Positions 45,813 through 57,934 of a stretch of DNA of 64,000 nucleotides are shown piece after piece. The position numbers and the translations under genes are program-made. The stretch lies in assembly GCA_030835135.1 (NCBI GenBank), contig JAUQWO010000064.1:62001-126000 (forward strand), written 5' to 3'. This DNA comes from Bacteroidota bacterium. Its GTDB lineage: Bacteria; Bacteroidota; Ignavibacteria; UBA10030; UBA6906. Position 1 is the first letter of the stretch; each line of letters opens with the position of its first letter. Under the pieces are notes generated by a model that had not been told where the DNA came from, searched no databases, and saw only the letters and a program-made list of their open reading frames with translations.

Positions 45813-48245
45813 TCAGACCGATCGGGGGCCGGCGTTTCGCCGGACAACGATCTGTGCCGAACGTCCGGGGATCGGCGCTTCCCACCTCTCCCCTCGCGTC
45901 GCCTGTCCCTCGATCTCCCGGTCATCACACATGATCGATGACCAGCACGCGGGCAGTGAGAGCATCCACCGCCCCGCGGGAACCACACCGCCGGGATGGA
46001 ACACAATATCCACCACCGCCGTATCTCCGCGAGGCCGGACACGAATATCGACCCGGCCTTCCGGGACCGGCGCTCCCTCCAGGGCAAATGGCTCCGACTG
46101 ATCGAACCACGCAGCAGGTATCCCGCTGAGAAGGCGGAGTGTGTGTTCCCCCGGGAGAGAGTCCCACACCTCCATGACAAAGGCATTCCTGATCGCAAGG
46201 ACGACCTCAGCGGCGGCCCATCCATGATGTCCGTCTCCCATGCATCCCCCACCCGTGAGGGGGTGGATCGCTTCGGGATAGGTGAAGGTTGGCGATGACC
46301 GTCCCGCAACATCGGCAACGATCGCCCAGAACGACCCGCTGTCTCCCGCATACAACATCGCTTCGGCAACCTGCACTGTGAGATAGACATTCAACCCGGA
46401 GTGAATGAACGGCTGGTAGAACATGCCTTGCATGAACATGCGCTCACGGATCGTCTCCAGCGTTGCACGCATCCCCGGGTCGTCCGGTGGGAACACCTGA
46501 AGCGGATACCATGCTGCGACCGAACCGATGATGCCCGCATCGATGGACCGGAGGGGACCGGCCGGGATCGCGGCCGTACCGATGTTCGCGCGCACAGTAT
46601 CGATGGAACGTCCGATATCGCGGCGCAAGGAGAGGGCAAGCCTGTGTGCCCGGTCCCGCTCCTCCCCCCTCCCGAGCATCGCGCAGATCCGTTCAAAGGC
46701 CTCGACACCGGCAAGCGACCAGAAGGAATCCCAGTAATACACATCCGCAAGGCCGAGATGCTCGGCACTCAACCCGCGTGGCATCAATCCGTCCACCAAA
46801 GGATCCCCCGGCGTACGCATGCGCTTCGTGTCGATCCACCCGATGCCCTTCACGAGTGATGGGAACAGCCGGCCGGCAAGCGATGTATCGTGCGCGAACA
46901 CCGCATGGTTCCAGACGCTCCAGATCGCCTGTCCGGTGGAATCCCATTCTCCCTGCTGGGATCGGAACATGCCGGACCGTTCCTGTTCTTCCGGGAATCG
47001 CTCGATCACGCCGCGGGTCATGGCACCGTACCCGAGCCGGTCGAGCGCCAGAAGCATGTATGCCGCATCGCGGAACCAGAAATAGTGGTAGGTTGCCGGT
47101 CCGGGACAGATGGATGTAGCATCCAGTGAAGCGAGCAAGGCACTCTTCGAAGCTTCGAACAGGTCCCCTATCCTCTTGTCCGGCACCTGGCATCCCGCAC
47201 CACGCCCCAGCAGGTCCTTCCACCGTGCAACAACTCCGGCAAGGGGTTCCGCCTCCACGGTCCGGGAGTCATCCAGCGGACAACTGAGGTTCACATCCTT
47301 CCCCTCCTCCGGTCCGAGCGACAGATCGAAGATCATCACGGCGGTCGCCAGCCCGGACGCACACGTGACGTGCCGGTCATCCCCGCCCTGTGTCCACTCT
47401 GCGAACCGCCATGCCACATCCCCCGTGGCACGGTCGGACATCAGCAATCGTGACGGCGGTGTGTCAACGGTGATCGCGTGCGCGCCATTGACCGCCACCC
47501 TTCTGCCGGAGGCATCGGCGCGGATCTCCTCGATGAGTGCAACACCCTCGGGATTGAATGGCCTGATCGCGACCCCAAGCCGGACACTGCGCCGGGCGCG
47601 CCCGCGGTTCGTCACCCGGATCCGGATCGCGGCGGTTCCGTTAACGGTGTACACAGTAGAGGTCATCGCGAGGTCCTCCAACGTGGCCACCGTGCTCACG
47701 ATCGGCAGGTTCTCCTGCAGTGACTGCTGCACATCCGTGGAGCGTGACGGAAAGAGCACGGCCGTTTCCGAGCCGAGCCAGAGGTCAAGCGACCAGGCAT
47801 CCGGCCGTAACGTCACCGCTCCGCGGGGGTCCACGATCGGTTCGATGGCGCACTCCGGACTACCAGCGGCTGTCCAATTGCGATGGGTCACGTTCATCGA
47901 TAGCCCGAGATGTGAACGGGGAATGAACTCCGGGGAGGTCGGGTCATATTGCCGCTCCGCCCAATACGGCAAAACCCAGCGATCCAGCGTCTGCAGGACG
48001 GTGAAATTCAGCAGACCTCGCGACATCTGGATGGTGTTCAACGGAAGGAGTTCGACCGGAAGCGTCGATCGGTCCAGACCGCTCGATCGCGATGCAGCGC
48101 GGAACATGCGCACGGCTGCGGACGGGATCCGGAATCGCCGGGCGAGAAATGAGATCAGAGCATCGGAAAGGGACACGTGGCACCTGTGTTGGTCGTGCGA
48201 TACGCCAATATCCGCTGTCGGGCGGGCAACTGCAAGGGCAGACAT
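45813..48245 (-). CDS. GH15-like (alpha/alpha)6-barrel glycosidase-like protein
   Basis: 810 residues, no signal peptide, so cytoplasmic. Residues about 60-340 form a beta-rich N-terminal domain. A six-hairpin barrel follows, with TYHYFWFRDAAYMLLALDRLGYG, EWDSTGQAIWSVWNH, VYYWDSFWSLAGV and GMFYQPFIHSGLNVYLTVQ, the sort of aromatic/acidic blocks seen in glucoamylase-like and glycogen-debranching-like proteins. Candidate acids are in FWFRD and YWDSFW. Substrate unknown. The start is uncertain: ATG 48245 lies 4 bp from the 11-bp repeat array, which covers its ribosome-binding site (AAGGTG); a later ATG is possible. It is divergent from the 35-residue peptide and glycosyltransferase genes. Confidence 0.68.
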   Translation of the reverse strand: MSALAVARPTADIGVSHDQHRCHVSLSDALISFLARRFRIPSAAVRMFRAASRSSGLDRSTLPVELLPLNTIQMSRGLLNFTVLQTLDRWVLPYWAERQYDPTSPEFIPRSHLGLSMNVTHRNWTAAGSPECAIEPIVDPRGAVTLRPDAWSLDLWLGSETAVLFPSRSTDVQQSLQENLPIVSTVATLEDLAMTSTVYTVNGTAAIRIRVTNRGRARRSVRLGVAIRPFNPEGVALIEEIRADASGRRVAVNGAHAITVDTPPSRLLMSDRATGDVAWRFAEWTQGGDDRHVTCASGLATAVMIFDLSLGPEEGKDVNLSCPLDDSRTVEAEPLAGVVARWKDLLGRGAGCQVPDKRIGDLFEASKSALLASLDATSICPGPATYHYFWFRDAAYMLLALDRLGYGAMTRGVIERFPEEQERSGMFRSQQGEWDSTGQAIWSVWNHAVFAHDTSLAGRLFPSLVKGIGWIDTKRMRTPGDPLVDGLMPRGLSAEHLGLADVYYWDSFWSLAGVEAFERICAMLGRGEERDRAHRLALSLRRDIGRSIDTVRANIGTAAIPAGPLRSIDAGIIGSVAAWYPLQVFPPDDPGMRATLETIRERMFMQGMFYQPFIHSGLNVYLTVQVAEAMLYAGDSGSFWAIVADVAGRSSPTFTYPEAIHPLTGGGCMGDGHHGWAAAEVVLAIRNAFVMEVWDSLPGEHTLRLLSGIPAAWFDQSEPFALEGAPVPEGRVDIRVRPRGDTAVVDIVFHPGGVVPAGRWMLSLPACWSSIMCDDREIEGQATRGERWEAPIPGRSAQIVVRRNAGPRSV

Positions 48246-48249
48246 CGAC

Positions 48250-48303
48250 TTAACACCTTGATAATACTCGCATAACACTCTGTTCACACATGAAGTGTAT
48301 CAT
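48250..48303 (+). promoter_or_regulatory. Pho-box-like array A: four 11-bp direct repeats plus -10
   Basis: 7-bp units TTAACAC (48250), ATAATAC (48261), ATAACAC (48272) and TTCACAC (48283) are spaced exactly 11 bp apart. An 8-bp gap then leads to the -10-like TATCAT at 48298. The four-fold 11-bp direct repeat with a TTAACA core just upstream of -10 matches the layout of PhoB/PhoP operators. It drives the peptide/glycosyltransferase/phosphoesterase unit to the right. The same geometry recurs at 51428 and 52003. Confidence 0.78.
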
Positions 48304-48328
48304 GGAACACCATAATCGGGGAGGGTCC

Positions 48329-48436
48329 ATGACATATCCATGGTTTGCGGTCGCCGGACTTCTCGTCCTGTGCGCCGGTTTCCTGAGCGGCTCGCACCGC
48401 CGCGGAACGAATGCCCACAGCCATATGCCACAGTAA
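48329..48436 (+). CDS. 35-residue single-pass membrane peptide
   Basis: ATG at 48329 has a strong GGGGAGGG site a few nt upstream and lies about 19 nt after the predicted transcription start of array A. The product is 35 residues: a short N-terminus, the hydrophobic run WFAVAGLLVLCAGFL, then a basic histidine-rich tail (SGSHRRGTNAHSHMPQ). The TAA is 13 bp before the glycosyltransferase start, and that gene's GGAAGGG site begins right after it. Strong signals and position argue for real translation. It may be a regulator or partner of the membrane-associated glycosyltransferase; the role is unknown. Confidence 0.6.
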   Translation: MTYPWFAVAGLLVLCAGFLSGSHRRGTNAHSHMPQ

Positions 48437-48449
48437 GGAAGGGCAGCCC

Positions 48450-49607
48450 ATGCGTGTAGCACACTTTGCCGGAACAATGCGGCCCGGACACGACGGCGTC
48501 ACACGCGTCCTGTACCGGATGACCACCGCGCTCGCGGGCGCCGGGGTGGATCATGTCTTCGTCGCACCGATCGTGCCCCCCGAGACGGAACGGACTGCGA
48601 CCATGATCGAGGTCCCTTCCGTGGCATTCCCGCTCTACACGGACTATCGCCTCGCAACCCCCGGTTCACGGTTCTTCGGCAAGCAGGTGCTCGACTTCCG
48701 GCCCGACATCCTCCACATTCATAGTCCCTGCTCATTGGGCTACGCAGCCGTCCGGTTCGGGAAGAAACACAATATCCCCGTGGTCGCAACCTACCATACG
48801 CACTTCGCAAGCTATGCGAAGTATTATAACATCCCCATGTTGGAACCGTTCGGCTGGTCGTACCTGCGTCACCTGTATGACGGGTGTGACAGGATCTTCG
48901 TGCCGTCGATGCCGATCCTGGACGAGCTCTGGACGCAGGGCTTCCGCCGTCTGCACCACCTTCCGCATGGTGTCGACGCGACCATGTTCAATCCCGGGCA
49001 CCGCTCCTTCTCCTGGCGCACCGCGCACGGCATACCCGGCAACAAGAAGATGCTGCTGTTCGCGGGGAGGCTGGTATGGGAAAAGGACCTGCGCACGCTG
49101 GCAGCTGCGTATGAACTCGTGAGCACGCAACGCCAGGACATCGTCTTCGCCCTCGCAGGTGATGGACCGATCCGCCAGGAATTGCAGGGCTTGATGCCCA
49201 ATGCCGTGTTCCTCGGGCAACTGGATGGAACCGACCTCTCGCGTGCCTACGCCTCCGCAGACCTGTTCGTCTTTCCTTCGACAACGGAAACGTTCGGGAA
49301 TGTGATCATTGAATCGATGGCATCGGGAACCGTGCCGGTGTGCGCGCGTGAGGGTGGAGCGGCCGGCGTCGTCCTGCATGGCGTCACGGGACTCCTCACC
49401 ACGCCGCGTGATCCGGCCGACCTCGGGAGGGCGATCACGGAACTCCTGGATGCTCCTGCACGACGCGAAAGCATGGCACTCCAGGGGCTGGAATTCGCGC
49501 GGCGTCAGTCCTGGCAGAACATCTTCCAGACGATGATCGATGCGTACCGGGAGGTGATCCATGAGCGCACAATCCGCAGAACCCAACGACCAAGGAAGGC
49601 CGCATGA
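48450..49607 (+). CDS. GT4-family glycosyltransferase, candidate lipid glycosyltransferase
   Basis: 385 residues, GT-B fold. The N-terminal domain begins MRVAHFAGTMRPGHDGVTRVLYRM with the glycine-rich acceptor loop; VATYHTHFASYAKYY and GVDATMFNPG are typical of the SqdX/MgtA/PimB-like branch. The donor site shows FAGRLVWEKDLRTLAAAY and the E-x7-E motif (PSTTETFGNVIIESMASG). Members of this branch glycosylate diacylglycerol or phosphatidylinositol; Agt enzymes make glucosyl- and glucuronosyl-diacylglycerol when phosphate is scarce. ATG 48450 has GGAAGGG ~7 nt upstream. Its TGA overlaps the phosphoesterase start (ATGA), a strong sign of a joint role in lipid remodelling. Confidence 0.82.
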   Translation: MRVAHFAGTMRPGHDGVTRVLYRMTTALAGAGVDHVFVAPIVPPETERTATMIEVPSVAFPLYTDYRLATPGSRFFGKQVLDFRPDILHIHSPCSLGYAAVRFGKKHNIPVVATYHTHFASYAKYYNIPMLEPFGWSYLRHLYDGCDRIFVPSMPILDELWTQGFRRLHHLPHGVDATMFNPGHRSFSWRTAHGIPGNKKMLLFAGRLVWEKDLRTLAAAYELVSTQRQDIVFALAGDGPIRQELQGLMPNAVFLGQLDGTDLSRAYASADLFVFPSTTETFGNVIIESMASGTVPVCAREGGAAGVVLHGVTGLLTTPRDPADLGRAITELLDAPARRESMALQGLEFARRQSWQNIFQTMIDAYREVIHERTIRRTQRPRKAA

Positions 49608-50560
49608 CGTCATCCATCACGATCGCACATCTTTCCGACCTGCATCTCAGCGCATTGCACAAACGGAGCCATATCCGCCGCACCCGTCGCGCTCTGGACC
49701 ATCTCAACGCGCTGGGGGTGGATCATGTGGTCATCACTGGCGATATCACGGCGGACGGCACCCCGGAGGACTACCGCGTGGCGCGGTCGGTGCTCGCATC
49801 GGCAGGATTGCTGGCTTCCCCGCGGCTGACCGTTGCGATCGGGAACCATGATGTGTTCGGAGGGGTGCACACGGCGGAGGACGTCCTCTCATTCCCCGGG
49901 CGATGTGCGCGGACCGATGACAAGGCGAAGCTCAAGGAATTCGGCGCGGCCTTCCAGGAGACCTTCCAGGGAACCCTGATGCCCGCGGAAAAGCGCATCT
50001 TCCCGTTCGCGAAGATCATCGGGGGGGTCGCGCTCATTGCCGTGAATACGGTCGCCCCGTATTCCCGCGTCAAGAACCCCCTCGGATCCAACGGCAGCGT
50101 GGACGACCGGTCCTTCGAAATGCTGCGCGATATCCTCGCTGACCCGGTCATCCGGACCAGAAGGAAGATCATCGCATTGCATCATCATTTTCACAAGATG
50201 CGCGAGACCCGGGAAGGTACGGTCCACTCCGTCTGGGGGGCGATCGAGCGCCAGACCATGAAGCTCCGCGGCAAGTCCCGGCTCCTCAAACTCTTCGCGC
50301 AGCACCAGGTGGACCTCGTCCTGCATGGCCATATCCACCGGTCCGCGGAATATCTCCGTGATGGCGTGCGCTTCCTCAATGCAGGAGGATCGGTCCTGCA
50401 TGAGGCGGATCCGGACCTGCACATCAACCTCATCCGGTGCACGGCGTCGGGATGCACTACGGAGATCCACCGGATCCCCTTCGAAAACCTGCCGGCCCGG
50501 ATCAGCACCTCCCTCGTCCACTCCGAAGCATCGCTCACGGCTGGCCATGCCGCGGCGTGA
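49604..50560 (+). CDS. Calcineurin-like metallophosphoesterase, candidate PlcP-type phospholipase C
   Basis: 318 residues, cytoplasmic. The five metallophosphoesterase motifs are intact: DLHLS (with D-x-H), VVITGDITADG (GD), AIGNHDVFGG (GNHD), IIALHHHFHKM (H), and LVLHGHIHRS (GHxH). Family members bind two metal ions and split phosphoesters. In Sinorhizobium and many marine bacteria, PlcP of this superfamily degrades phosphatidylcholine/phosphatidylethanolamine to diacylglycerol, and its gene lies beside agt. Here it overlaps the glycosyltransferase gene by 4 nt under a Pho-box-like promoter, so a PlcP role is the best guess. Other calcineurin-like substrates cannot be ruled out. Confidence 0.8.
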   Translation: MTSSITIAHLSDLHLSALHKRSHIRRTRRALDHLNALGVDHVVITGDITADGTPEDYRVARSVLASAGLLASPRLTVAIGNHDVFGGVHTAEDVLSFPGRCARTDDKAKLKEFGAAFQETFQGTLMPAEKRIFPFAKIIGGVALIAVNTVAPYSRVKNPLGSNGSVDDRSFEMLRDILADPVIRTRRKIIALHHHFHKMRETREGTVHSVWGAIERQTMKLRGKSRLLKLFAQHQVDLVLHGHIHRSAEYLRDGVRFLNAGGSVLHEADPDLHINLIRCTASGCTTEIHRIPFENLPARISTSLVHSEASLTAGHAAA

Positions 50561-50607: not shown

Positions 50608-51366
50608 GTGCCCGATCCCAGGACATACCACCTCTCAGCCGCACGGACGGCGCTCATGATCCTGGCCGTGCTCATGACGGCCTCTTCGTGTCGTCACGAG
50701 GCATCCCGGCATGAGGCCGCTGGATGGACCGGCGAGGTCACCCTCCAGCAGATCGAGGAACTCCGGAACGTCGATGCCCTCCTGCCGCTGGACCCCGACA
50801 GCATCGCGACCCTGTATCGGCGGTACGACCCTGTCACGTTCTCTGTGGCCTATGGCGATGAGATCAGGTCCCTCACGCTGCTCATCGACTCACTGAACGC
50901 CCCCCTGCCGGATTCCCTGCGCATCGATACGCTCTCCATCGACCATACCTTCACGAATCTTGGCGAGGCGGCGGTCCGGGGACGGACGCTGTACATCTCC
51001 AGCAGCTATTTCTATATGTACCGATCGCCCGAAGTCTGCCGCTCGGTCGCAACACACGAGTTCGGCCACCGGTACTATCATACGCTCACCGCCGGAGCCC
51101 GCGATTCCATCATCAGTGTCTGGCGGTCGCTCCAACGGACCGCCTTGTTCTACATCTTCCGCGACGGCGAGTATGCAGGCAACGCCCGCTTCGGAGGACA
51201 TCCCGAAGAGAGCCCGCCCGAGCTGTTCGCCTCAGCATTCAACGTGATCCGCAACCGTCCGGGAGAACTCGCTTCCCGGCTCTTGTTTGTCAGCAACCAG
51301 GATCGCCTTTCCCCCGACCGTGTCATCGCGATCGTGGAGAGCGCCGTGGCCCGCACCCGGCGCTGA
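50608..51366 (+). CDS. Exported HExxH zinc metallopeptidase-like protein
   Basis: 252 residues. The N-terminus has a signal-peptide-like core (ALMILAVLMTASSC); cysteine at the end could be a lipobox cysteine, but the residues before it (ASSC) are not ideal. The zincin motif HEFGHRYYH is clear (VATHEFGHRYYHTL), and a candidate third ligand glutamate occurs downstream in GHPEESPPELFASAF. The fold is otherwise unrecognised. GTG 50608 has GGAGG 12-13 nt upstream; a later ATG would shorten the signal. It follows the phosphoesterase gene by 47 bp and may be part of the same transcript. Confidence 0.68.
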   Translation: MPDPRTYHLSAARTALMILAVLMTASSCRHEASRHEAAGWTGEVTLQQIEELRNVDALLPLDPDSIATLYRRYDPVTFSVAYGDEIRSLTLLIDSLNAPLPDSLRIDTLSIDHTFTNLGEAAVRGRTLYISSSYFYMYRSPEVCRSVATHEFGHRYYHTLTAGARDSIISVWRSLQRTALFYIFRDGEYAGNARFGGHPEESPPELFASAFNVIRNRPGELASRLLFVSNQDRLSPDRVIAIVESAVARTRR

Positions 51367-51427: not shown

Positions 51428-51481
51428 ATTACGATTCGGTAACACTCCAGTAACACTGGCATAATACTCCCCTGTTACATT
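51428..51481 (+). promoter_or_regulatory. Pho-box-like array B in front of the winged-helix regulator
   Basis: Units ATTACGA (51428, weak), GTAACAC (51439), GTAACAC (51450) and ATAATAC (51461) are 11 bp apart, followed by an 8-bp gap and the -10-like TACATT at 51476, which is preceded by an extending TG. It shares ACGATTCGGTAACACT, 16 identical bp, with array C. It probably makes the downstream regulator gene self-controlled. Confidence 0.75.
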
Positions 51482-51528: not shown

Positions 51529-51915
51529 ATGCACTACCTGGAGACTGACACGACGGCGGTGGCCACACGGCCCGACCACCCGATCGCCAGCATCGGTGAA
51601 CGAGGACCGGAAACGACCATTTGCATCGGAGACTTCCGGATCGACATCGAGCATGAGGTGGTCTACATCGGAGCGGAGCGCATCCTTCTCACCGGGACCG
51701 AGTTCCGGATCCTGCGCACGCTCCTCATGCGCTCCTCGGCTGTGATCCGCCGCGATCTCCTCCTGGCCACAGTCCGCGTGCATACGCAGAACATCTCCTC
51801 CCGGAGCCTCGATGGACACATCTCGCGCCTGAGGACCAAACTCGGCCGGCATGGCACCTGGATACGGACGTTCAAGGGCGTGGGCTATCGGTTCTTTCCC
51901 ACCGTCCTGCCGTGA
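51529..51915 (+). CDS. Stand-alone OmpR/PhoB-type winged-helix regulator (no receiver domain)
   Basis: 128 residues. The C-terminal ~95 are a complete Trans_reg_C domain: GDFRIDIEHEVVYIGAERI, LTGTEFRILRTLLM, RDLLLATVRVHTQNISSRSLDGHISRLRTKL with the recognition helix (SLDGHISRLRTKLG), and the beta-hairpin wing FKGVGYRF. The first ~30 residues replace the receiver domain and show no fold. So it cannot be switched by phosphorylation in the usual way. It is flanked on both sides by promoters with 11-bp repeats, which are typical targets of this family; it is the best candidate for binding them. GGGGGTGG lies directly before ATG 51529. The shortness appears genuine: the region upstream is the array, not a broken receiver. 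Confidence 0.8.
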   Translation: MHYLETDTTAVATRPDHPIASIGERGPETTICIGDFRIDIEHEVVYIGAERILLTGTEFRILRTLLMRSSAVIRRDLLLATVRVHTQNISSRSLDGHISRLRTKLGRHGTWIRTFKGVGYRFFPTVLP

Positions 51916-51961
51916 ACGTACCGGCACGCAGTGCAACCCCTGGCATCATCCTCACAATTTC

Positions 51962-51990
51962 TTAACACAACCGTAACACGGCGTTCATGC
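51962..51990 (+). promoter_or_regulatory. Accessory upstream 11-bp repeats ahead of array C
   Basis: TTAACAC (51962), GTAACAC (51973) and a weaker TTCATGC (51984) sit at an 11-bp period, about 40 bp upstream of array C; GTGACAC follows at 51996, one base out of phase. This may be a second operator for the TonB receptor promoter or a relic. Confidence 0.55.
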
Positions 51991-52002
51991 GTGCGGTGAC
52001 AC

Positions 52003-52056
52003 TTAAGGATGTGATAACGATTCGGTAACACTGGCGTAACATGCACTTCGTACCTT
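52003..52056 (+). promoter_or_regulatory. Pho-box-like array C in front of TonB receptor 3
   Basis: Units TTAAGGA (52003), ATAACGA (52014), GTAACAC (52025) and GTAACAT (52036) are 11 bp apart, then an 8-bp gap leads to the -10-like TACCTT at 52051. The geometry is identical to arrays A and B, with the best units nearest the -10. The predicted transcript leader is about 70 nt. Confidence 0.72.
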
Positions 52057-52130
52057 GGGATACCGCGCGGGTGAACTGCCCGGGCCGGGCAACGCAGGCG
52101 CGGTCCATCAACCATAGTGCACGAGTGACC

Positions 52131-54857
52131 ATGACAACAATTCCACGACGCTCTCTCGCCATCCACCTTGCGCTCTTGATCGTGTTCCCGTCGATCATTG
52201 CCTTCGGAAAGACCACCGGGACGATCACCGGCAGGGTGTGGGATGAATCCACCGGTGAAGAACTTGTCGGCGCAAACATCCTGATCGTCGGGACGACCCG
52301 TGGCGGAACGACGGACATCAACGGGGGCTTCTCCCTGCGCACCGTGCCGTTCGGAACCTACGATCTCCGGGTCACGTTCGTCGGCTACGCCACGAAGATC
52401 GTGCAGGGCATTCAGGTGGCCACACCCGCTCCCGTGGCACTCCAGATCACGCTCAAGGCCGAGCAGTATGAGGCCGAGGAGGTGGTCGTGACCGCCGAAC
52501 GTGTGCTCTCGAGTGATGCGGCCATCCTCGCGACCCGGAAGAAGGCCATGGCGATCGGCGACGGTCTCAGCGCCGAACAGATCAAACGGACTCCCGATGC
52601 CACTTCCGGTGATGCGCTCAGACGGGTGACGGGTCTGACGATCGTGGACAACAAGTTCGTGTATGTACGCGGCGTCACCGACCGGTACAACGGCACCATG
52701 CTGAACGGTGTGCCGGTCACCAGCACCGATACGGACGTCGACCGGAAGAGCTTCGCCTTCGACATGATCCCCGCGAACCTCCTCGAGAACACCGTCGTGG
52801 TCAAGACCGCAACCCCCGACCTGCCCGGCGATTTTTCCGGCGGGATGGTACAGGTGAACACGCTTGATTTCCCCTCGAAGCAGGTGATCCGGATCGGCGT
52901 CTCGAGCACCTACAACTCCGTGACGAGCGGCCAGGAATTCCGGACGTCGCAGGGGGGCGCCCGTGACTGGGCGGGGATGGACGATGGCAGCCGGGGGCTC
53001 CCCGCGGGCTCCGGCGCTCAGCTTGCGCAGAGCCTGCCGAACACCTGGAACCCCCGGCAGCAGAGCGCGCCGGTCAATGCCGCTTTCAACCTCTCCTACG
53101 GCGACAGATTCCAGTTCGATGACGATGAGGCAGGCGTCGTGGCCGCGCTCTCGTATGCGAATGCCTACGCAGCCCAGGAATTCCGCGAAGCTCCGACGTA
53201 CGTGTATGGCGGTCTTCCGGTGTTCCAGTTCACGGGCAACTCCTACTCCCGGAACGTGCTCTGGACGGGGCTTCTTGACCTGAACTACAAGCTCGCCGCG
53301 CACCACAAATTCAGCATGCGGAACAGCTACAATCAGTCGGCACAGGACAACGTCGCGATCTCATCGGGGACGAACATCGCGGGCAGCCTCTCCCGTCGCC
53401 AGTCCATCTCCTGGGACCAGCGCTCTCTGTATCTCCTGCAACTCAGTGGTGACCATGCAATCCCCGCACTCGGCGGATTGGAAGCCACCTGGAAGGTGTT
53501 CTCTTCATCGTCCCGCGCAGAAGAACCGGACCGGAAGCAACTTGAATACACCGAGGGGTCCGGTGACGCATTCTCCCTGGGCGAGAACTACCGCACATGG
53601 TCGAAGCTGAACGAGCGCACACGCGGCGCCACGATCGACCTCTCCATGGGTCTCGCCGCACTGAAGGTGAAGGCCGGCGCCACCGTGGACATGAAGGAGC
53701 GTGCCTTCGGGATCCGCGCATTCTCCGCGCTGCCAGGCCGCGACCCGTTGTACTTCTCGCTCGTCCTCCTGCCCGCCGACCGGATCTTTGCCGCAGAGAA
53801 CTTCGGCGGGAGTAAGTTCCAATTCCTCGAAGCGTCCACGTTCACCGGCGCGTATGAGGGCGATCAGCGGCTGAACGGGTACTATGCCATGGCAGACGTG
53901 GACCTCGCGGTGGCCGGCATCAGCGTGCGTGTCAACGGCGGTGCCCGCCTGGAGAATTTCGAAGAGCACGTCACATCGCCGCTCGCGATCGATGACCCGA
54001 CATTGACCACGACGACCCTGCAGGCCACCGACGTGTTGCCGTCGGTGAACATCAAGGTCTCTCCGTTCGAGGCCTTCAACATCCGGCTTGCCCATTACCA
54101 GTCCGTGAACCGGCCGGAGTTCCGTGAACTCGCCAACGTCCTGTACCTGGATTTCAAGACCGATCAGAACACGATCGGGAACCCCTCCCTGCAGCGCGCA
54201 TACGTCCACAATAACGATATTCGCGCCGAGTACTTCCCCGGTGCGGGCGAGGTGATCGCGGTGTCCTACTTCCACAAGACGATCTCCAACGCGATCGAAG
54301 AACGCCTGCTCGCAGCGCCCGACCGGTATGTGAAGACATGGTTCAACTCCCCCTCCGCCAGGAACACCGGCTGGGAGTTCGAAGCCCGGCTCTCGCTTGG
54401 TCACCTTGCGGGGATGTTGGACAATGTGACCGTGATGGCGAATTACACCACCGTCCGGTCGGAGGTGGAGTACACCGACGCCCGCACGGATGCAGCAGGG
54501 AATGTGGTACGGACAGCAGCGACCCGCATGATGCAGGGGCAGGCCCCCTGGACGATGAACCTGGGGGTCTACTACACCCATCCCTCGCTCGGCACCAATG
54601 CCAGCATCATGCTGAACAAGCAGGGCCGCCGCCTCAGTGCGGTGGGCGATGTGCGCGACTATGATGTGTATGAGGAACCGCGCGACATGGTGGATATCAG
54701 CGTCAGTCAGCCGCTGTTCGGATTCCTCGAGGCAAAACTGAGCGCAAAGAACGTCTTCAACAAGGAACGGATCCTGACCAGCGGCGACCAGCGTGTCCCC
54801 TTCGCGTTCTGGAGCCAGGGCAGTTCCTACACACTGGCATTGTCGGTCAACCTCTGA
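52131..54857 (+). CDS. TonB-dependent receptor 3
   Basis: 908 residues. Signal peptide (LAIHLALLIVFPSIIAFG), carboxypeptidase-regulatory-like domain (about 25-115: GRVWDESTGEELVGANILI, INGGFSLRTVPFG), plug with GDALRRVTGLTIVDNKFVYVRGVTDRYN and TATPDLPGDFSGGMVQVNTLDFP, then barrel ending ALSVNL. It belongs to a different subgroup from receptors 1 and 2 (the LPGDFSGG type). ATG 52131 gives the signal peptide; an in-frame ATG at 52041 lies inside array C and before the likely transcript start, so it is rejected. It is followed 59 bp later by the T9SS repeat protein, forming a receptor/surface-protein pair. The operator suggests a phosphorus-containing ligand (inference). Confidence 0.86.
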   Translation: MTTIPRRSLAIHLALLIVFPSIIAFGKTTGTITGRVWDESTGEELVGANILIVGTTRGGTTDINGGFSLRTVPFGTYDLRVTFVGYATKIVQGIQVATPAPVALQITLKAEQYEAEEVVVTAERVLSSDAAILATRKKAMAIGDGLSAEQIKRTPDATSGDALRRVTGLTIVDNKFVYVRGVTDRYNGTMLNGVPVTSTDTDVDRKSFAFDMIPANLLENTVVVKTATPDLPGDFSGGMVQVNTLDFPSKQVIRIGVSSTYNSVTSGQEFRTSQGGARDWAGMDDGSRGLPAGSGAQLAQSLPNTWNPRQQSAPVNAAFNLSYGDRFQFDDDEAGVVAALSYANAYAAQEFREAPTYVYGGLPVFQFTGNSYSRNVLWTGLLDLNYKLAAHHKFSMRNSYNQSAQDNVAISSGTNIAGSLSRRQSISWDQRSLYLLQLSGDHAIPALGGLEATWKVFSSSSRAEEPDRKQLEYTEGSGDAFSLGENYRTWSKLNERTRGATIDLSMGLAALKVKAGATVDMKERAFGIRAFSALPGRDPLYFSLVLLPADRIFAAENFGGSKFQFLEASTFTGAYEGDQRLNGYYAMADVDLAVAGISVRVNGGARLENFEEHVTSPLAIDDPTLTTTTLQATDVLPSVNIKVSPFEAFNIRLAHYQSVNRPEFRELANVLYLDFKTDQNTIGNPSLQRAYVHNNDIRAEYFPGAGEVIAVSYFHKTISNAIEERLLAAPDRYVKTWFNSPSARNTGWEFEARLSLGHLAGMLDNVTVMANYTTVRSEVEYTDARTDAAGNVVRTAATRMMQGQAPWTMNLGVYYTHPSLGTNASIMLNKQGRRLSAVGDVRDYDVYEEPRDMVDISVSQPLFGFLEAKLSAKNVFNKERILTSGDQRVPFAFWSQGSSYTLALSVNL

Positions 54858-54916
54858 TGCCCGTGATCGGACCTTCACAACTGCAACGACACACCCAACG
54901 ACCAAGGAGAAGCGGT

Positions 54917-57900
54917 ATGAGACGACTGTCATCACTGGTGCTGGCCCTGCTGGTCCTGCCCGCAGCCACACTCTTCGCGCAGCTGCCGGAGCGCATTCTG
55001 GGGCCGGGCCTCAATGCCGGGCGCACGGCGTTCCATCAGCATGCCAACATCACACTATCGGCGGACACTGCCTATGTTCTGACAGGGCTGTTCTATGTCG
55101 ATTCCACGTTCACGATGACCATCCAGCCCGGCACCGTGGTGTTCGGCGATACCGGCGCGGCTCTCATCATCACCCGCGGTGCGAAGATCTTCGCGATGGG
55201 CAGCGCCAACAGTCCGATCGTCTTCACAAGCAATAAGCCGGTGGGCCTGCGGCGCTCCGGCGACTGGGGCGGGATCCTGATCCTGGGGAGCGCCCCGACC
55301 AATAAGGTCAACCCCCTGATCGAAGGCGGGATCATCGGCGGGAGCTATGGCGGCAGCGATCCGAATGACAACAGCGGCATCTTCCGCTATGTCCGCGTCG
55401 AGTTCGGCGGCTACCGGTTCCAGTTGAACAACGAGGTGAACGGGCTCACCATGGGCGGTGTCGGCGCGGGTACCGAGATCCACCATGTGCAGGTGAGCTA
55501 TGCCGACGACGATTCCTTCGAGTGGTTCGGGGGGACGGTCAATGCGAAGAACCTCGTCGCGTTCGGCGGCACCGACGACGAGTTCGATTCGGATTTCGGC
55601 TACGCCGGCAAGGTGCAGTTCGCCTTCGGCATGCGCGACCCGAATCAGTGGGACCCGACCGGCGAAAGCAACGGGTTCGAATCCGACAATGATGGGTCCG
55701 CCACCTCCACCGACCAGCCGTTGACCAAACCGGTCTTCAGCAACGTGACGCTGATCGGCCCGGAACGCATCGACTCGCTTGTCGGCAAGCTGCCCGCGGG
55801 CAACAAGTTCCAGTACACCGCCCTGCTGCGCCGCTCCACACGCCTGAGCATCTACAATTCCGCCTTCGCCGGCTACCCCTGGGGATTCCGGGTGCGCGAC
55901 GTCAATACGATCGCTGCAGCGAACAATGACTCCCTGCAGGTGCGGAACGTGAGCCTTGCTGCCAGCGCCCGTCCGAACAATTCCTCCTCCGTGCATGATT
56001 CATCCCAGTGGGCAGGGATCACGGCGTGGTTCAACACACCCGCCTATGCGAACACCGGTGCCGCACCGCGGAACCCCAGTGCCCTTGGATTCACGAACCT
56101 CGCACTCCTGAACGATCCTGATCCGGCTCCGCAGACCGGCTCGGAACTCGCCGGAAGCGCAAGCTTCAGTGCTGCGGCACTCGGCGGGCTCGACGTCGTG
56201 ACATACCGCGGGGCCTTCGAGCCCGGCAAACCCATGAGCGCACAGTGGACGGCAGGATGGACGAACTTCGATCCGCAGAACACGAACTATCGTGCGATCA
56301 AGGCAAAAGGACAGGCGATCATCGGTCCCGGCCTGAACAGCGGACGCACGGCCTATCATCTGACGGCGAATCGGACCCTCTCGGCCGACTCGCAGTACGT
56401 GCTCACGGGTCTGGTCTATGTCGATTCGACCTATGCGATCACCATCCCCGCCGGGACCGTGATCAAGGGCGACACCGGCGCAGCGCTGGTCATCACGCGC
56501 GGGGCGAGGATCTTCGCCACCGGCACCGCTGACCGGCCGGTCGTCTTCACGAGCAACAAGGCCCCCGGACAGCGTCGCTCCGGCGATTGGGGCGGCATCC
56601 TCATCCTCGGCAGCGCTCCGGCCAACAAGGTCAACCCGCTCATCGAGGGCGGCATCATCGGGGGGAGCTATGGCGGCACGAACGTGAATGACAACAGCGG
56701 TGTGTTCCGCTACGTCCGCATCGAGTTCGGCGGGTACCGCTTCCAGTTGAACAACGAAGTGAACGGCCTCACTATGGGTGGCGTGGGCGCAGGGACGGAG
56801 ATCCATCACATCCAGGTCAGCTACGCCGACGATGATTCCTACGAATGGTTCGGCGGCACCGTGAACGCGAAGTATCTGGTGGCGTTCGGCGGGACCGACG
56901 ATGAGTTCGATTCGGATTTCGGGTATGCGGGTAATGTGCAGTTCGCCTTCGGTCTGCGCGACCAGAACCAGTGGGATCCCACGGGCGAGAGCAACGGCTT
57001 CGAATCCGACAACGACGGTTCCGCCACCTCGACGGAACAGCCGTGGACACGGGCACAATTCTCCAACGTCACGCTCGTCGGCCCCGAACGGACGGATGCA
57101 CTCGTGGGCAACCTGCCCATCGGCAATAAATTCCAGTACAGCGCGTTGCTCCGCCGCTCCACACGGCTCAGCATTTACAACTCGGCGATCGGTGGTTACC
57201 CCTGGGGCTTCCGGGTTCGCGATATCAATACGATCGCGGCCGCAAATGCCGACTCCCTCCAGCTCCGGAATGTCACCCTCGCAGCGAGCGCCCGGCCGAA
57301 CAATTCCTCATCCGTCCACGACTCATCGCAGTGGGCGGGGATCACATCGTGGTTCGATACCCCTGCGTACGCCAACAACGGGTCAGCGCCGCGCGGGATC
57401 AGCGCACTCGGTCTCACGACCATGAGCAACCTGAATGCCCCGAACCCGGTTCCCGCAACGGGATCCGCATTGATCGGCTCTGCGTCGTTCGCGAACCTCC
57501 GCCTTGCGTCCTTCGATGTTACGACGTACCGTGGAGCGTTCGATCCTGCAAAGCCCATGAGTCAGCAGTGGACCGCCGGCTGGACGAACTTCGATCCGCA
57601 GTACACCAACTATGCATCCTCGTCACCGGTGACGTCGGTCGAACCGGTGGCGGACGGTGATCTCCTCCCGCAGGGTTTCTCGCTGGAGCAGAATTATCCG
57701 AACCCGTTCAATCCTGCCACGCGCATCCGGTTCTCCGTGCCCCAGAGCCAGTTCGTCCGCCTCGAGGTCTACTCGATCCTCGGTCAGAAGGTGGCAACGC
57801 TCGTGGAGAATGTGGTACCGGCAGGCTCGTTCGAGGTCACGTTCGACGGACGCGGTCTTGCGAGTGGTCTGTACATCTATCGCGTGGAAACACCCGGCTT

Positions 57901-57934
57901 CACCCGGGCAGCGAAGATGATGCTCGTCAAATAG
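54917..57934 (+). CDS. T9SS-secreted protein made of two 441-residue copies
   Basis: 1005 residues. Signal peptide to about 22 (TLFAQ). Two large tandem copies follow (roughly 26-457 and 467-899). Each has GPGLN-GRTA, SADxxYVLTGL, DTGAALIITRG (or LVITRG), RRSGDWGGILILGSAP, GGYRFQLNNEVNGLTMGG, DDEFDSDFGYAG and a closing GWTNFDPQ. The repeated G-rich, beta-strand-forming core suggests a right-handed beta-helix. A T9SS type A sorting domain ends it (NYPNPFNPATRIRF, ILGQKVATLVENV, basic end AAKMMLVK). ATG 54917 has AAGGAG ~8 nt upstream. It is probably the surface partner of TonB receptor 3. No catalytic residues are recognised. Confidence 0.8.
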   Translation: MRRLSSLVLALLVLPAATLFAQLPERILGPGLNAGRTAFHQHANITLSADTAYVLTGLFYVDSTFTMTIQPGTVVFGDTGAALIITRGAKIFAMGSANSPIVFTSNKPVGLRRSGDWGGILILGSAPTNKVNPLIEGGIIGGSYGGSDPNDNSGIFRYVRVEFGGYRFQLNNEVNGLTMGGVGAGTEIHHVQVSYADDDSFEWFGGTVNAKNLVAFGGTDDEFDSDFGYAGKVQFAFGMRDPNQWDPTGESNGFESDNDGSATSTDQPLTKPVFSNVTLIGPERIDSLVGKLPAGNKFQYTALLRRSTRLSIYNSAFAGYPWGFRVRDVNTIAAANNDSLQVRNVSLAASARPNNSSSVHDSSQWAGITAWFNTPAYANTGAAPRNPSALGFTNLALLNDPDPAPQTGSELAGSASFSAAALGGLDVVTYRGAFEPGKPMSAQWTAGWTNFDPQNTNYRAIKAKGQAIIGPGLNSGRTAYHLTANRTLSADSQYVLTGLVYVDSTYAITIPAGTVIKGDTGAALVITRGARIFATGTADRPVVFTSNKAPGQRRSGDWGGILILGSAPANKVNPLIEGGIIGGSYGGTNVNDNSGVFRYVRIEFGGYRFQLNNEVNGLTMGGVGAGTEIHHIQVSYADDDSYEWFGGTVNAKYLVAFGGTDDEFDSDFGYAGNVQFAFGLRDQNQWDPTGESNGFESDNDGSATSTEQPWTRAQFSNVTLVGPERTDALVGNLPIGNKFQYSALLRRSTRLSIYNSAIGGYPWGFRVRDINTIAAANADSLQLRNVTLAASARPNNSSSVHDSSQWAGITSWFDTPAYANNGSAPRGISALGLTTMSNLNAPNPVPATGSALIGSASFANLRLASFDVTTYRGAFDPAKPMSQQWTAGWTNFDPQYTNYASSSPVTSVEPVADGDLLPQGFSLEQNYPNPFNPATRIRFSVPQSQFVRLEVYSILGQKVATLVENVVPAGSFEVTFDGRGLASGLYIYRVETPGFTRAAKMMLVK
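54995..57613 (+). repeat. Internal tandem duplication, period 1323 bp
   Basis: The codons for ILGPGLN at 54995 and IIGPGLN at 56318 are 1323 bp (441 codons) apart. The two copies stay in register with no visible indel up to the GWTNFDPQ-x-TNY ends near 56290 and 57613. Core stretches are nearly identical in protein sequence while differing at many third codon positions. Confidence 0.88.

Follow-up and report, generated by a model that had tools for sequence, protein, structure and literature searches.

The 64,000-nucleotide stretch of Ignavibacteria DNA analysed here (the window) contains an operon with a Pho-type promoter, which may well work, by analogy, like the phosphate-starvation pair PlcP-Agt, using a phosphoesterase of another subfamily and a glycosyltransferase of a separate GT4 clade. 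We assign a probability of roughly 0.6 to the reading that its metallophosphoesterase (MPE) and glycosyltransferase (GT) jointly remodel phospholipid into glycolipid as PlcP and Agt do. The initial annotation had proposed a lipid-remodelling operon of exactly the PlcP-Agt type; Pho control was borne out, the family name PlcP had to be given up, and the kinship with Agt holds at branch level only. The window lies on contig C31 of an assembly of 4.9 Mb that is 100% complete. Its nearest named relatives are metagenome-derived Ignavibacteria, and the MPE is 66% identical to its counterpart in Ignavibacteriae fen_1290. The features are listed in Table 1.

Table 1. Features of the predicted Pho-controlled operon and its surroundings, in window coordinates
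Feature	Position	Strand	Remarks
C1, divergent ~790-aa predicted (alpha/alpha)6 glycosidase	45813..48176	-	conserved partner
Pho-type operator, four boxes, 11-bp period	48250..48288	+	TTAACA-N5-ATAATA-N5-ATAACA-N5-TTCACA
-10-like element TATCAT	48298..48303	+	9 nt past the last box
35-codon single-TM micropeptide	48329..48436	+	basic tail; first gene of the operon
GT4 glycosyltransferase (GT)	48450..49607	+	lipid-acting branch, E-x7-E type
Calcineurin-like metallophosphoesterase (MPE)	49604..50560	+	GpdQ/Rv0805-like fold, not PlcP
Pho-type array (GTAACA, GTAACA, ATAATA) + 9 nt + TACATT	51439..51481	+	composite pattern, 1 mismatch
Receiver-less PhoB-like winged-helix protein	51529..51915	+	Trans_reg_C only
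Two more Pho-type arrays	51951..52056	+	51951-51978; 52014-52041 + 9 nt + TACCTT
TonB-dependent receptor	52131..54857	+	likely start 52131; Pho-island neighbour
Type IX-secretion-tailed exoprotein	54857..57934	+	internal duplication

The GT and MPE ORFs share 4 nt (ATGA), and Pfam assigned Glyco_transf_4/Glycos_transf_1 (about 1e-31) to the former and Metallophos (7e-16) to the latter. The overlap and the full set of MPE metal motifs, both recorded in the initial annotation, were seen again in the ORFs, in the Pfam results, and in the alignment. The pair does lie downstream of the operator, but the GT is not the first gene, as had been supposed, since the micropeptide precedes it. The micropeptide, the TATCAT element, and the divergent conserved C1 gene, which has its intergenic region in common with the operon, had all been overlooked. 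A lipoprotein-like protein with an HEFGH motif is encoded 47 nt past the MPE gene (50608 to 51366); it showed no family match and had no homologue among the fetched relatives.

Pho control was assessed by searching both strands of the 4.9-Mb genome with a four-box pattern (TAACA-N6 four times, at most 3 mismatches), which gave seven matches at six distinct places and none with the reversed control. Only the operon array and the pst array matched with 2 mismatches, making them the joint best; the latter precedes a porin-pstS-pstC-pstA operon on contig C49, whose PstS and PstA exceed the curated cut-offs. Further matches in the window precede the PhoB-like winged-helix protein (one) and the TonB receptor (two). 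Two array-like matches were judged unrelated, namely, TGTTACA repeats in a mobile-like stretch (C31:35992, one of the seven matches) and a palindrome after a gene (C88:125665). The composite pattern of three boxes, 9 nt, and TAnnTT had eight matches in the genome and none in the control: the pst operon, the operon described here, three more arrays in the window, a PhnW operon, and one unassigned site just past the window end. PhnW (2-aminoethylphosphonate transaminase; 475.8 bits against a cut-off of 296) is encoded on contig C67, where the Pho-type promoter is followed by a transporter-like gene and phnW (L242:4772-7334, G000:C67), suggesting phosphonate use in the same regulon. These own-genome counts partly reflect the choice of a box consensus that was derived from the genome's own arrays; the arrays of relatives and the spacing to the -10 element are free of that choice. 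Among 31 distinct arrays taken from the genome and related ones, 26 show a TA-N3-T element exactly 9 nt downstream of their last box, and none has one at an offset of 8 or 10 nt. The spacing played no part in finding the arrays and thus provides independent support for a working promoter.

The array before the operon therefore combines boxes at an 11-bp period, box sharing with pst, and a fixed distance to the -10 element. The four 11-bp repeats that had been described are exact in their period, but the TTAACA core is exact in box 1 only. The claim of a Pho-box-like promoter ahead of the pair stands, in view of the boxes shared with pst, the empty control, and the arrays in relatives, and we are highly confident that the operon is under Pho control. 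While strongly supported in silico, this control entails two predictions, namely, PhoB binding and induction at low phosphate. The outcome is an in silico definition of the Pho promoter of Ignavibacteria (4 x NTAACA-N5, 9 nt, TAnnTT), which makes the phosphate regulon of this mostly uncultured class readable from sequence.

The arrangement recurs in relatives, most of which are represented by metagenome assemblies. The MPE was found at full or near-full length in 43 of the 121 genomes searched. In all nine same-family genomes holding both genes at this locus, GT and MPE are adjacent and an array scoring at least 16/20 lies upstream of the GT, in agreement with the earlier expectation that related genomes would have the repeats in front of the pair. 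In Ignavibacteria without an adjacent GT, an array is located 38 to 81 nt before the MPE gene (L004, L005, L007, L008, L048, and L138). In the 400 nt upstream, arrays scoring at least 16/20 were present at 24 of 45 MPE/GT operon loci, compared with 12 of 299 other ORFs (P = 4e-16 by Fisher's test, a value that overstates independence because the 45 loci share descent). The MPE gene is close to pst/phoU genes at eight loci (L048, L128, L130, L142, L144, L153, L160, and L161) and, in other relatives, near genes that we take, from reading their sequences, to be polyphosphate genes. Nearly half of the relatives have the MPE without a neighbouring GT, and its role may accordingly be independent of glycolipid synthesis.

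Some variants of the locus were also seen. Genome G016 (L208:2771-4225, G016:C227) has kept the array and the MPE, while its GT is reduced to the first 24 codons and its C1 to a fragment. A GT paralogue (63% identical) lies on contig C49 of the genome studied here (L201:8039-9337, G000:C49, at 62 kb), with neither array nor MPE beside it. An apparent GT-MPE fusion at L130 was dismissed, as the joined frame crosses an N/frameshift in the assembly. As would suit a lipid function, five relatives encode an LPG_synthase_TM flippase-like protein a short way downstream of their MPE. In eight relatives, including L147:8757-9605, a HAD-IB phosphatase gene directly follows that of the MPE; the enzyme could dephosphorylate a released head group.

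The GT carries the E-x7-E motif (TETFGNVIIE) and a YHTHF motif. In the maximum-likelihood tree, it falls within a branch (99/94) that contains PA0842/Agt2, Agt, actinobacterial GTs, and SqdX, the Agt enzymes being those adjoining PlcP in Pseudolabrys and Paraburkholderia, PA0842 a real record recognized by its plcH-plcR neighbours, and SqdX a stand-in sequence rather than a database record. The GTs of Ignavibacteria form a single clade (100/100), whose sister is a group of Sphingomonadaceae GTs (94/84), and the Agt clade (100/100) excludes the window GT. The window GT and its relatives also keep the Glu of TETFG...E, in contrast to the Agt (GTcp) clade, in which Asp takes the place of the signature Glu (PMC8231724). 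The proposed SqdX/Agt-like nature of the GT is thus correct for the branch but not for the Agt clade. The other GT4 proteins of the genome (L188, L193, L196, and L199), taken as capsule/LPS-type enzymes, lie outside the lipid-acting branch, so the expected separation from them was confirmed in the tree.

PA0842 was the best characterized relative found for the GT (31.5% identity over 371 residues, 169 bits), and its deletion in P. aeruginosa abolishes glucuronosyl-DAG under low phosphate (PMC8528852). The closest NCBIfam model was GlcNAc-phosphatidylglycerol synthase (167 bits against a cut-off of 480), the product of which retains its phosphate, a point that counts against a phosphorus-free glycolipid; PA0842 also matches this model best, and the model thus does not fix the substrate of the GT. 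We consider it probable that the GT makes a membrane glycolipid.

The metal motifs of the MPE (D-x-H, GD, GNHD, HHH, and GHxH) are invariant among 28 aligned relatives and form a two-metal calcineurin-like site, which is superfamily-wide and hence not specific to PlcP. The PlcP references used for comparison are real sequences that were located with a PlcP consensus and confirmed through their neighbouring Agt-, PhoB-, or PhoU-like genes. In the tree, PlcP and the LpxH of the genome form one group and the MPE family another (100/98), and blastp of the MPE against four PlcPs aligned only 29 to 88 residues (E values, 0.003 to 0.23). The MPE is not PlcP, contrary to the original assignment, as it falls outside PlcP in the tree and gives no full-length alignment. 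Pseudolabrys encodes a PlcP alongside a protein distantly resembling the MPE, indicating that the families are distinct. No canonical PlcP was found elsewhere in the genome, where an LpxH-like protein is the only member of the PlcP/LpxH group, and in the relatives the searches recovered nothing beyond LpxH-like and further COG2908-like proteins, none of which reached 100 bits. A COG2908-like phosphoesterase subfamily is present in relatives without a strong MPE match (L243, L245, L246, L250, and L251) and possibly replaces the MPE there.

The AlphaFold model of the MPE (pLDDT 88) was closest to GpdQ and Rv0805 (VIA Z scores, 26 to 27; rmsd, 2.3 to 2.8 over 219 to 238 residues), with Lmo2642 as the top VIA row (Z score, 28). 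LpxH ranked low in the structure searches (Foldseek rank 43), a position that we do not treat as proof of absence. Among the nearest folds are those of a glycerophosphodiesterase and of a cyclic-nucleotide phosphodiesterase, and the MPE therefore need not act on lipids. No signal peptide was apparent in the MPE sequence.

The membrane peptide that opens the operon is conserved at 27 to 37 residues and has a counterpart at the same place in all seven same-family loci read. In close pairs, the differences are biased to third codon positions (16 of 21 for L126 versus L127; P = 7e-5). The open frame of C1 reaches position 48287, and the starts of homologues favour the GTG at 48176. C1 itself had no significant match in Pfam or NCBIfam, and a search of solved structures with a profile built from 20 C1 proteins gave no convincing relative; the AlphaFold model of C1 (pLDDT 37) was discarded. 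Members of the C1 family match GH116 (two members; best, 8.6e-7), GH63-type MGH1, GH95, and GH15 weakly, which makes a six-hairpin glycosidase the likely identity of C1. C1 occurs in 26 of the 121 genomes, all 26 of which have the MPE and 25 the GT; the remaining C1 genome is 55% complete. Both the predicted glycosidase family of C1 and the micropeptide are newly recognized components.

Put together, these elements suggest how the operon would work. At low phosphate, a phosphorylated PhoB-type regulator would bind the four boxes and recruit the polymerase to TATCAT, turning on the small membrane peptide, the membrane-lipid GT, and the cytosolic MPE. The MPE would cleave a phosphodiester, most likely that of a phospholipid head group or of its breakdown product, releasing a phosphate-containing product together with a lipid that can serve as acceptor, for instance diacylglycerol, to which the GT would add a sugar to yield a phosphorus-free glycolipid. 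C1 may take the sugar off again once phosphate returns. A more far-reaching proposal, which we put forward tentatively, is a PlcP-independent remodelling system of Ignavibacteria in which a GpdQ-like MPE, a GT4 clade, a starvation-induced micropeptide, and a new glycoside-hydrolase family would form one reversible module, its regulon tuned by the receiver-less PhoB-like protein, whose own gene lies behind such boxes.

The locus could also be Pho controlled and yet serve two jobs, the MPE being a GpdQ-like cytosolic enzyme for the salvage of glycerophosphodiesters or nucleotides and the GT and C1 a separate glycolipid or glycoside module behind the shared promoter. Such a division is consistent with the fold of the MPE, with the six lone MPE genes behind their own arrays, with the MPE genes beside polyphosphate or pst genes, and with G016, where array and MPE outlasted intact GT and C1 genes. 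The 4-nt overlap and a GT-MPE adjacency kept in many genomes argue for a joint task, and known plcP genes, too, are often found with no agt beside them (PMC4796936), which is why a lone MPE is no argument against lipid work. On balance, we regard two separate jobs as rather unlikely.

Improbable in our judgement is a GT that uses ceramide instead of diacylglycerol, with a low-phosphate glycosphingolipid as its product, as in Caulobacter, and C1 as the matching glucosylceramidase-like enzyme. The sister position of the Sphingomonadaceae GTs fits this reading, as do the two GH116 matches of the C1 family, GH116 being a family that includes glucosylceramidases. Phosphate-starved Caulobacter makes a glycosphingolipid (PMC6445935) and Ignavibacteria have been tentatively linked to glycosyl-ceramides (PMC10667739), which also count for it; however, the family match of C1 is weak and shared with other (alpha/alpha)6 families, and the phosphoesterase would be left unexplained. 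An operon for extracellular or storage polysaccharide in place of membrane lipids would suit the great breadth of the GT4 family and the glycosidase-like C1, but it is very improbable, as the GT groups with lipid-acting enzymes apart from the other GT4s of the genome and no capsule, LPS, or glycogen genes recur among the conserved neighbour clusters.

If the MPE and the GT do remodel phospholipid jointly, their closest functional parallel would be PlcP-Agt of Sinorhizobium, Phaeobacter, SAR11, and Pseudomonas aeruginosa (PA3219/PA3218), which likewise has a Pho box, a metallophosphoesterase gene adjoining that of a GT4 lipid glycosyltransferase, and two products predicted to be cytosolic. It differs in the subfamily of the phosphoesterase, in the clade of the GT and its Asp in place of the E-x7-E Glu, and in gene order, since in the window the GT comes first and a micropeptide and a glycosidase are added. 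Agt2 (PA0842) of P. aeruginosa resembles the window GT in its motif (SETFGNV versus TETFGNV) and in being phosphate controlled, but it belongs to a separate clade and has no paired MPE of the window type. GpdQ and Rv0805, among the closest solved folds, share only about 23% identity with the MPE, whose family has a conserved HHHF motif and is centred on Ignavibacteria. The swap of phospholipid for glycolipid may have arisen repeatedly, each time out of other enzymes, in which case surveys that rely on plcP as their marker would overlook these lineages. We found no paper on phosphate-starvation lipids in Ignavibacteria in a literature search whose coverage mostly excluded subscription journals.

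Lipid remodelling is already known in Bacteroidota, e.g., in Flavobacterium (PMC8115612; PMC4796936). The low-phosphate-induced Pho regulon of Flavobacterium johnsoniae includes a lipid-remodelling GT, PlcP, TonB receptors, and pectate-lyase-like exoproteins, but its GT belongs to PF04101 and its phosphoesterase is called PlcP (PF12850) (PMC8115612), whereas the window uses other families, arranged as an operon. Pho-type arrays also precede genes further downstream in the window. The array at 51439 is among the two closest composite Pho promoter matches in the genome. Among NCBIfam models, PhoB of Bacteroidetes fitted the winged-helix protein that follows it best (62 bits; cut-off, 270), and this protein may exert feedback on the regulon. 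The TonB receptor and the type IX-secretion-tailed exoprotein are preceded by two arrays (51951 to 57934 with both genes), a homologous pair adjoins MPE and pst genes at L144, and the pair in the window is reminiscent of the Pho exoproteins of Flavobacterium.
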